Positions 17,689 through 20,566 of a stretch of DNA of 64,000 nucleotides are shown piece after piece. The stretch spans positions 1 to 64,000 of the forward strand of contig JAJQAG010000002.1 of NCBI GenBank assembly GCA_021203905.1, in the 5' to 3' direction. Made by a program: the position numbers and the translations under genes. Source of the DNA: Coprobacillus sp. (GTDB lineage Bacteria > Bacillota_I > Bacilli_A > RFN20 > CAG-826). How positions within the stretch are numbered: position 1 is the stretch's first letter; each line of letters opens with the position of its first letter. The notes under the pieces are model-generated. The model was given only the letters and a program-made list of their open reading frames with translations. It had not been told where the DNA came from and searched no databases.

Positions 17689-17718
17689 AAAAACCCGCGT
17701 TTTGCGGGTTTTTCTTTT
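17689..17718. terminator. Bidirectional terminator
   Basis: AAACCCGC-GTTTT-GCGGGTTTTT stem with T-runs on both strands, between the lipoprotein operon and the converging copA. Confidence 0.85.
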
Positions 17719-17738: not shown

Positions 17739-17960
17739 TTACTTTCTCTCAACGATTTCACCAAGATATCCCGCTTTAGTGACCGCTTTAATAAGAGCCT
17801 TCTCTTTGACGTTTTCTGCACTAACTAGGGCTTGCTTGTCTTCAAGAGAGACTGAGACTTCACTCACTCCCTTGACCTTCTCTAGGGTGGTTTTTACCCT
17901 TTCGACACAGTGAGAGCAACTCATTCCCTCCACGCTAATGGTGTAAGTAACTTTTCCCAT
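17739..17960 (-). other. Possible internal CopZ-like product of copA
   Basis: Within copA an in-frame ATG at 17960 is preceded by AAAGGA at ten bases' distance. Translation from it gives a 73-residue protein that starts MGKVTYTISVEGMSCSHC and is exactly one HMA domain, the size of a free CopZ copper chaperone. Whether it is made is unknown; it may be the remnant start of a once separate copZ gene. Confidence 0.4.
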
Positions 17961-20213
17961 AAGAACTTCGTCCTTTCCTTTAATATTATATAAGTTTATC
18001 GTTAAAGCGGTTAAAACCACTAAAACCGATGATACACACATACAGATTGATCCAATCATTGGATTAATATTCCACCCTAGTGGATAAAACACCCCACAAG
18101 CAAAAAACACAGCGACAACATTATAGATAGAGGCCCAAAAGAGACATACATAGATAGTGGTCATAACTCTTTTAGAGAGGCCTATGGCATTTCTAATATC
18201 CATGAGATTATTTCTCTCTAAGATGATGTCACTATTCTCTATCGCTACTTCACTCCCCTCTCCTATAGCAATAGAGAGGTCACTCAGGGTGAGAGCAATT
18301 GTATCATTTACCCCATCTCCCACCATAGCGATGACATCTTTCTTGTCCTGTTTTAATTGTTTAATAATCTCTCCTTTTTGCGAGGGTAAGACTTCAGCAT
18401 AGTATTCACTAATCCCCACTTCCCCCGCAATCGCTTTAGCGACTTCTTTATTATCTCCTGTGAGCATGACCACTCTAATGCCCATCTTATGAAGTTGTTT
18501 AATCGCCTCTATAGATGAACTCTTTACTTCATCCTTAAGCGCAATTAAACCAATGACTTCATTATCACAGGTTATTAGTAGTGGGGTTTTAGCCTCTTGT
18601 GATAGATTGTTATATTGTTTTAGGTATTCTTCATTAATACTGATGTCTTTTAGGATTGTGGTGTTTCCGATAAGGTATGTATGTCCATCATAGATACCTT
18701 TTAATCCCTCTCCCTCTCGAAACTCATATTCCTCTATATTTAGTTTTACGGCATTATTCTTTAATCCATAACGAACAATAGAATCCGCTAAAGGATGAGA
18801 GGAGAGACTCTCTAGGGAATAGATAATATCTAAGAGATTATCTTTGTTTGTGTAGTTATAGAAGTCTGTCACTGTGGGAGTACCCTCAGTGATAGTGCCC
18901 GTCTTATCAAAGACGACAATATTCACTTTATGGGCTCTTTGTAAGATCTCCGCATTCTTAATTAAAAGACCATTACTCGCTCCCTTACCAGTACCCACCA
19001 TTATGGATATTGGTGTGGCCAGTCCTAAAGCGCAAGGACACGCAATTACCAAAGTGGTAATCGCGTGATTAAAAGCCACTTCAAAACCAAGCCCGCAACA
19101 GAGAAAGACCACGAGAGAGATAATCGCAATCCCAATAATCGTCGGGACAAAGTAAAGAGCAATCTTATCGACAAGTCGAGATATCGGAGCCTTAGAATTA
19201 GAGGCTTCTTCCACTAACTTAATGATTTGATTAAAGGAAGTATCCTCTCCCACTTTATCCGCTTCGACCTCGATATATCCATTAATAATTGTCGTGGCGC
19301 TATAAACACTATCTCCCCTCTTCTTATAGATAGGGACACTCTCTCCTGTAATGTTACTTTCATTAATGGATGCTCCCCCTTGAACAATGTGTCCATCAAT
19401 TCCACAGATATCCCCATTCTTACAAACAATGATATCTCCTACTTTCACTTGACTAACATCAACCTCTTGTAAGGAGTCACCTCTTTTAATGGTGACCTTC
19501 TTAGGAGAGAGATCCACTAATTGTTCTATCGCTCTAGTGGTTCTTGATTTAGAGACATTCTCTAAAAGCTTTCCTAGACTCACTAGGGTGAGTATCATGC
19601 TACAAGCATCAAAGTAGAGAGATTCTCGATATGTCTCAATAATGGAATCATCTCCAATACTGACGCCATAGTTAATCATAAAGAGCGCCACTATCCCGTA
19701 GATTATAGAAGCACTGGCGCCTAGAGCGATTAAAGAATCCATATTAGGATGTAACTTAAATAGTTTCTTATATCCTGAAATAAAGTAGTTAAAGTAGATA
19801 ACCACTGTGGGGAGAGTAAGCACTAATTCAAATAACCCAAGGTTACTGACATTACTATCTCCCGAGATAAATCCAAATTGTGGCCATCCCCACATCGTTC
19901 CCATACTGACATAGAGGAGAAACAACATAAAGAATCCAGAGATAGAGAGTTTAATAATATCGTTTCTTACGACATGACTAACACCCGCTCTCTCACTTGT
20001 TGGTGATTCTATAACTAAGGTGTAACCAGCTTTCGTGACTGCATCTTTAATATCAATCTCACTAACAACACCTTCATCAAATTCTACTTCCATGGAGTTC
20101 GTTAAAAGATTGACGTTGACTTTCTTAACGCCTCTTAGTGATGACACCGCTTTATCCACATGAGCGGAGCACGCACTACAAGTCATTCCTAAGACTGGAT
20201 ACTTCTTCTTCAT
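17739..20213 (-). CDS. copA: Copper-exporting P1B-type ATPase with HMA domains at both ends
   Basis: Cu(I)-exporting P-type ATPase, 824 residues. In order: HMA domain with GMTCSAC (residues 9-15), membrane helices, TGES actuator loop, metal-site CPC (392-394), DKTGT phosphorylation site (Asp 436), SHPLA motif, GDGVND hinge, last membrane pair and a second HMA domain with GMSCSHC (about 764-770). The hinge reads GDGVNDTIAL where the family usually has GDGINDAPAL. Two HMA domains are common but normally both N-terminal; here the last 73 residues look like a fused CopZ chaperone. The start overlaps the csoR stop by four bases (ATGA) behind GAGG. Copper-inducible by CsoR. Confidence 0.96.
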   Translation of the reverse strand: MKKKYPVLGMTCSACSAHVDKAVSSLRGVKKVNVNLLTNSMEVEFDEGVVSEIDIKDAVTKAGYTLVIESPTSERAGVSHVVRNDIIKLSISGFFMLFLLYVSMGTMWGWPQFGFISGDSNVSNLGLFELVLTLPTVVIYFNYFISGYKKLFKLHPNMDSLIALGASASIIYGIVALFMINYGVSIGDDSIIETYRESLYFDACSMILTLVSLGKLLENVSKSRTTRAIEQLVDLSPKKVTIKRGDSLQEVDVSQVKVGDIIVCKNGDICGIDGHIVQGGASINESNITGESVPIYKKRGDSVYSATTIINGYIEVEADKVGEDTSFNQIIKLVEEASNSKAPISRLVDKIALYFVPTIIGIAIISLVVFLCCGLGFEVAFNHAITTLVIACPCALGLATPISIMVGTGKGASNGLLIKNAEILQRAHKVNIVVFDKTGTITEGTPTVTDFYNYTNKDNLLDIIYSLESLSSHPLADSIVRYGLKNNAVKLNIEEYEFREGEGLKGIYDGHTYLIGNTTILKDISINEEYLKQYNNLSQEAKTPLLITCDNEVIGLIALKDEVKSSSIEAIKQLHKMGIRVVMLTGDNKEVAKAIAGEVGISEYYAEVLPSQKGEIIKQLKQDKKDVIAMVGDGVNDTIALTLSDLSIAIGEGSEVAIENSDIILERNNLMDIRNAIGLSKRVMTTIYVCLFWASIYNVVAVFFACGVFYPLGWNINPMIGSICMCVSSVLVVLTALTINLYNIKGKDEVLMGKVTYTISVEGMSCSHCVERVKTTLEKVKGVSEVSVSLEDKQALVSAENVKEKALIKAVTKAGYLGEIVERK

Positions 20214-20518
20214 TGAAACCTCTTACATAGATCAATCACTTCATCTAAGACTTCGAGTTTATCTTCTTTGATATCTCTCACTACACATGTCTCAAGATGC
20301 CTCTTTAAGATATCATTAGAGACACTCTTGATCGCTTTATCAATGGCACTTAATTGAATGAGGATATCTCCACAATATCGATTCTCATCAAGCATCTTTG
20401 ATATTCCTCTCACTTGTCCCTCTATTCTATTAAGACGAGACTTTATACTTTGTATTTCTTCCCTACTCCTCATAGTGGTCTTTTCACTATTAGTTTCATT
20501 TTTACCACAACAATCCAT
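20210..20518 (-). CDS. csoR: Copper-sensing repressor CsoR
   Basis: All-helical repressor of 102 residues that leaves DNA when Cu(I) binds. The Cu(I) ligand set is visible as Cys 49, His 74 and Cys 78 (RYCGD and RHLETCV), along with RLNRIEGQVRGI in the first helix. Start at ATG 20518 behind GAGGT; the frame remains open to 20566, but that would run through the operator. The N-terminal MDCCGKNE adds two cysteines. Operon with copA, autoregulated through the upstream operator. Confidence 0.95.
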   Translation of the reverse strand: MDCCGKNETNSEKTTMRSREEIQSIKSRLNRIEGQVRGISKMLDENRYCGDILIQLSAIDKAIKSVSNDILKRHLETCVVRDIKEDKLEVLDEVIDLCKRFQ

Positions 20519-20537
20519 ATCTATATACCTCACTATT

Positions 20538-20566
20538 ACAATATACCCTATGGGGGTATATGTCAA
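20538..20566 (-). promoter_or_regulatory. csoR-copA promoter with CsoR operator
   Basis: On the minus strand TTGACA, exactly 17 bases, then TATTGT form a strong promoter. The spacer is filled by the dyad TATACCCCCATAGGGTATA, the classical CsoR-type site with G/C tracts, so repressor binding would block RNA polymerase. Confidence 0.85.

Follow-up and report, generated by a model that had tools for sequence, protein, structure and literature searches.

The copA gene in the 64,000-nucleotide stretch of DNA analysed here (the window) is predicted to specify two proteins, i.e., a copper pump carrying a CopZ domain at its C-terminus and, by in-frame internal initiation of translation, a free CopZ of 73 amino acids. 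We put the probability of this reading at roughly 0.84; no translation data are available, and the case depends on the relatives of the window gene, as its internal Shine-Dalgarno (SD) sequence and ATG taken alone are not significant. In the mechanism proposed, the csoR-copA mRNA would be induced by copper, an induction which is itself inferred, and its translation from the copA start would yield the 824-amino-acid pump with the tethered CopZ domain. Ribosomes would also initiate in frame at the SD and ATG at 17981-17958, both this initiation and the amount of free CopZ that it supplies being inferred, and the free CopZ might then carry Cu(I) to the pump, a chaperone function that is likewise presumed.

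The copA gene and its putative internal cistron

The features relevant to this reading are the following.

20538..20566, minus strand: promoter-like TTGACA-17-TATTGT upstream of csoR-copA, with a CsoR-box-like palindrome TATACCCCCATAGGGTATA between the hexamers (operator role inferred)
20210..20518, minus strand: csoR, metal-sensing repressor of the CsoR/RcnR family (PF02583, 95.5 bits)
17739..20213, minus strand: copA, 824-amino-acid copper P1B-type ATPase with an HMA domain at the N- and at the C-terminus (PF00403), the pump product
20019..20195, minus strand: N-terminal HMA domain of CopA, motif GMTCSAC, ATPase-type
17971..17981, minus strand: internal SD region AAAGGAAAGGA, within the copA frame
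17958..17960, minus strand: internal ATG, corresponding to CopA residue Met752, in frame and 73 codons before the TAA
17739..17960, minus strand: internal copZ cistron, predicted free 73-amino-acid copper chaperone
17766..17942, minus strand: C-terminal HMA domain of CopA, motif GMSCSHC, CopZ-type
17689..17713, minus strand: intrinsic terminator at the 3′ end of the csoR-copA operon

CopA meets the requirements for membership in its family, since its translation contains the hallmarks ACPCALG (the CPC of the membrane helix), FDKTGTIT and GDGVND as well as the N-terminal GMTCSAC (MxCxxC), and it matches the NCBIfam models TIGR01511 (Cu) with 529.7 bits against a cut-off of 397 and TIGR01525 (heavy metal P-type) with 586.1 bits against a cut-off of 346. 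The csoR stop and the copA start overlap as ATGA in a two-gene operon on the minus strand, and because the intrinsic terminator ends this operon its mRNA contains no further copZ.

According to the initial annotation, CopA ends in a complete HMA domain with the motif GMSCSHC, and an in-frame ATG 73 codons from the stop is preceded by AAAGGA at a distance of ten bases. Both statements hold: PF00403 is found at both ends of the protein, and AAAGGA (17976-17971, inside AAAGGAAAGGA) ends exactly 10 bases 5′ of the internal ATG. The 16S tail read from this genome has the usual sequence, GGATCACCTCCTTTCT, so that SD-led initiation is to be expected. The pairing of the window SD amounts to -5.6 kcal/mol with the short anti-SD tail and to -10.0 kcal/mol (8 pairs) with the full 16S tail; the median SD energy at the first ATGs of long open reading frames in the window is -8.0, and 15% of the later in-frame ATGs of such frames reach -5.5. 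The short-tail value is, however, no improvement on what synonymous shuffling of the linker gives (p = 0.76), and such shuffles are only a little more structured than the region round the internal start.

With respect to the character of the C-terminal domain, the third residue of the CxxC motif is His (CxHC) in 108 of the 132 fused relatives described below, whereas almost all N-terminal HMAs have Ala or Ser there, and MxCxHC is the motif by which CopZ2 chaperones are defined (PMC7558416). In addition, 126 of these 132 C-terminal domains lie nearer to separate CopZ than to N-terminal HMAs. The predicted 73-amino-acid product models as a complete domain from just after the Met (pLDDT 93, element order E-H-E-E-H-E), and the model matches solved HMA structures including those of CopZ (2qif, 6ff2, 1cpz). 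As the best match to an NCBIfam CopZ model, CopZ_AFE_1862, scores 70.6 bits and does not reach the cut-off of 85, the domain is more appropriately named CopZ-like.

Conservation of the internal start among relatives

The search for relatives covered the genus, family, order and class to which the window belongs as well as one collection of named genome contigs, and about 200 copA loci were fetched and classified by their 3′ ends. A C-terminal HMA is fused to CopA in 132 of them, 43 are split with copZ adjoining the copA stop or close to it, and 23 have no copZ nearby. With few exceptions the fused genes stem from this same family, order and class, and there are a few near-identical pairs among the loci. 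At two loci, L121 (genome G042) and L069 (G218), stop codons interrupt the copA frame, which points to pseudogenes or assembly errors.

Of the 132 fused genes, 114 retain a start with an SD at the site of the internal ATG. An SD counted as strong (at or below -8 kcal/mol) accompanies an in-frame start in 101 of them (ATG in 99, GTG in 2), most commonly at a spacing of 7 nt, and another 13, the window gene included, have energies between -8 and -5.5, while the remaining 18 either lack a usable start or carry a weaker SD. The window SD is hence one of the weaker ones and would not convince on its own. By comparison, only 1.0% of 2,762 other in-frame ATGs in the fused genes reach -8, and the mean SD energy of the fused genes is -9.4 as against -4.8 in synonymous shuffles (combined p 1.9e-38, a value that is not exact because the rows are related). 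An SD arising by chance in a Lys/Glu-rich linker was considered and is rejected on the strength of the shuffles and of the other ATGs of the same genes.

Each of the three codon phases is represented among the SD cores (74/15/12), which read as Lys-Glu-Glu, Lys-Gly-Gly, Arg-Lys-Glu and others, in linkers that cannot be aligned and whose amino acids are not conserved, which indicates that it is the nucleotides and not the protein that are conserved; the conservation of start and SD across more than 100 relatives is independent of amino-acid sequence and codon phase. In the base profile anchored at the ATG, a AAGGAGGA-type peak at -14 to -8 makes the SD the sole strong upstream signal. ATG and SD also tend to be lost together. 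In a comparison of phylogenetically independent pairs, which takes the relatedness of the genes into account, loss of the ATG goes with loss of the SD in about 7 of 9 pairs, as against 0.2 pairs that disagree (median p 0.016). In the closest relative, a genus-mate with 63% identity (L004), AAAGGAAAGGAG stands at the position matching the internal SD of the window, and AAAGGAAAGGA and the ATG are retained with most of the following residues changed.

The gene satisfies two criteria for genes with an internal in-frame start (SctQ/SctQC, Cas8/Cas11 type): a ribosome-binding site and start precede a complete C-terminal domain, and start and SD are conserved beyond the needs of the protein. Poor conservation of the ATG and the SD in the face of a conserved domain would have refuted the initial annotation; the opposite was found across the relatives, and its reading in terms of internal initiation gains strong support from the comparison, with initiation at 17960 itself remaining an inference.

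Some relatives depart from the common arrangement. Two or three tandem C-terminal HMA domains are present in the CopA proteins of L224, L230, L074 and L099; in L074 and L099, which have two, start and SD occur only at the last domain, L224 has its likely start farther upstream, at about 16 codons from the motif, and L230 has no internal start. As to further HMA proteins, no HMA domain was found outside CopA in the genome of the window, which is 97% complete, and likewise none in about a dozen other genomes with the fused gene. HMA domains beyond the two of CopA were present in 14 of 15 genomes without a usable start or SD and also in most start-bearing genomes, and several extra small HMA proteins in the genomes of relatives are of other types. 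Small HMA proteins of about 85-130 amino acids with a motif of the type GMxCxMCExHV and mostly an FSFLRKK-like C-terminus were seen in several relatives, away from copA (L139-L141, L147, L152, L156). Two genomes in which the start is lost (G233, G234) have a separate CopZ-like gene directly downstream, whereas at least one genome whose fused gene is without usable start or SD, G357, contains no HMA protein besides CopA. That a separate CopZ is more often found in genomes without the internal start is suggestive only. As 18 fused genes have no usable start or SD, the tethered form alone suffices in some lineages.

Age of the fusion and alternative explanations

In a tree built from the CopA core without either HMA, about 55 deep-branching fused genes, among them the window gene, form one clade with a support of 100, the base of which is joined by one divergent split row. 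The tree implies 7 changes between the fused and the split state and, among fused genes, 11 between a start with SD and none. Judged from this tree, the copA-copZ fusion is ancient. The suggestion of the initial annotation that it might be a recent stop loss is not supported and is rejected, the fused state being common to the clade of about 55 genes. Identity to the window CopA within this clade is mostly about 46-63%, at which silent sites should be saturated, so that the persistence of the SD speaks for selection.

The initial annotation had also named relatives as the place to look for a separate copZ after copA, and in the split relatives copZ is the next gene. The copZ SD there often lies within the last copA codons, with stop and start within a few bases; in L109, L102 and L107 they overlap (ATGA, TAATG), so that translation is probably coupled in these three. 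Because stop and start are so close in the split relatives, a stop loss long ago, or an equivalent event, probably created the fusion.

The same proximity, including the TAATG of some split relatives, together with the weakness of the window's own SD, would also be compatible with SD and ATG being a mere relic, i.e., left over from a separate copZ that was fused by stop loss and now without function. However, over so old a fusion a functionless SD and ATG would have decayed, whereas they persist in 114 of 132 genes in a linker of unconserved amino acids and, where they vanish, vanish together; we therefore regard a relic as improbable. It is also conceivable that only the tethered C-terminal domain is made and that the SD serves as a pause site rather than as a start. 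That a tethered domain is viable by itself is evident from the 18 fused genes in which no usable start is present, but a pause site needs neither an ATG nor a fixed distance between SD and ATG, both of which are conserved and lost together, and the upstream HMAs of tandem C-terminal tails do without a start, so that this explanation appears very unlikely.

A third possibility, free CopZ arising from a separate short mRNA or from proteolysis of CopA in place of internal initiation, can be given hardly any credence. In its favour, a promoter-like TTAACC-18-TATAAT (18014-17985, minus strand) ends about 25 bases before the ATG, and to judge from the title of Drees et al. 2017 as listed in PMC7558416, the E. 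coli chaperone arises in part through differential transcripts. Nevertheless, promoter-like matches are fewer in this region than in shuffles (4 versus a mean of 9.0), and the ATG-anchored profile contains no conserved -10 hexamer; an internal promoter is rejected, as the upstream TATAAT is neither enriched nor conserved. Proteolysis, in turn, would not need a conserved SD. Internal initiation thus remains the preferred reading.

Relation to known systems

Release of the chaperone of the E. coli CopA(Z) type involves a slippery site and a pseudoknot. In E. coli, programmed ribosomal frameshifting lets copA yield both the pump and a free copper chaperone of the HMA kind (Meydan et al. 2017; Drees et al. 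2017; review: PMC7558416). The window gene is similar in that a single copA would have two products, pump and free HMA chaperone, the latter here predicted. However, in E. coli it is the N-terminal domain that is released, by a frameshift with early termination, while here it would be the C-terminal domain, by in-frame internal initiation, and the two have no mechanism in common. The remark of the initial annotation that the E. coli chaperone arises from the opposite end by frameshifting agrees with the review, the CopZ-type domain being C-terminal here.

In domain, motif and gene order the internal cistron resembles a separate CopZ beside CopA (CopZ2 type, MxCxHC; PMC7558416), the very arrangement present in split relatives from this taxonomic order. 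In contrast to a separate CopZ, no stop codon divides the fused gene into its two parts, and a tethered CopZ would thus be made as well. In-frame internal starts that free the C-terminal part of a large protein are known from SctQ/HrcQ (PMC8553256) and from Cas11 inside cas8/cas10 (PMC11899642). The predicted free copy of the CopA C-terminus is of the same kind, but whereas those products act as structural subunit or stabiliser, this one is predicted to carry metal to the pump of the same gene. HMA domains at both ends are also found in Archaeoglobus fulgidus CopA (Agarwal et al. 2010, cited in PMC7558416), where the C-terminal metal-binding domain is treated as part of the ATPase. Among the open-access papers searched, none was found that deals with internal initiation in copA; subscription papers were outside the search, and this absence is no proof of novelty. 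The ingredients are known, but within the same search no report came up in which internal initiation is combined with a copper pump and its chaperone.

Beyond the window, it appears likely that copA is, across a large part of the class, a conserved two-product gene, old and stable, which would release free CopZ from its 3′ end by internal initiation, convergent with the frameshift of E. coli, and with evolutionary exchange among split, fused-with-start and fused-without-start states. If this is true, chaperone genes have been overlooked in many annotated copA genes whose product ends in an HMA, even in genomes scored as lacking CopZ, and the natural series of these three states would make the value of a free as opposed to a tethered chaperone directly testable. 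Furthermore, two bacterial groups would have arrived at pump and chaperone from one gene by opposite routes, i.e., a 5′ frameshift and 3′ internal initiation, which suggests that there may be a selective reason to tie the supply of the chaperone to that of the pump.
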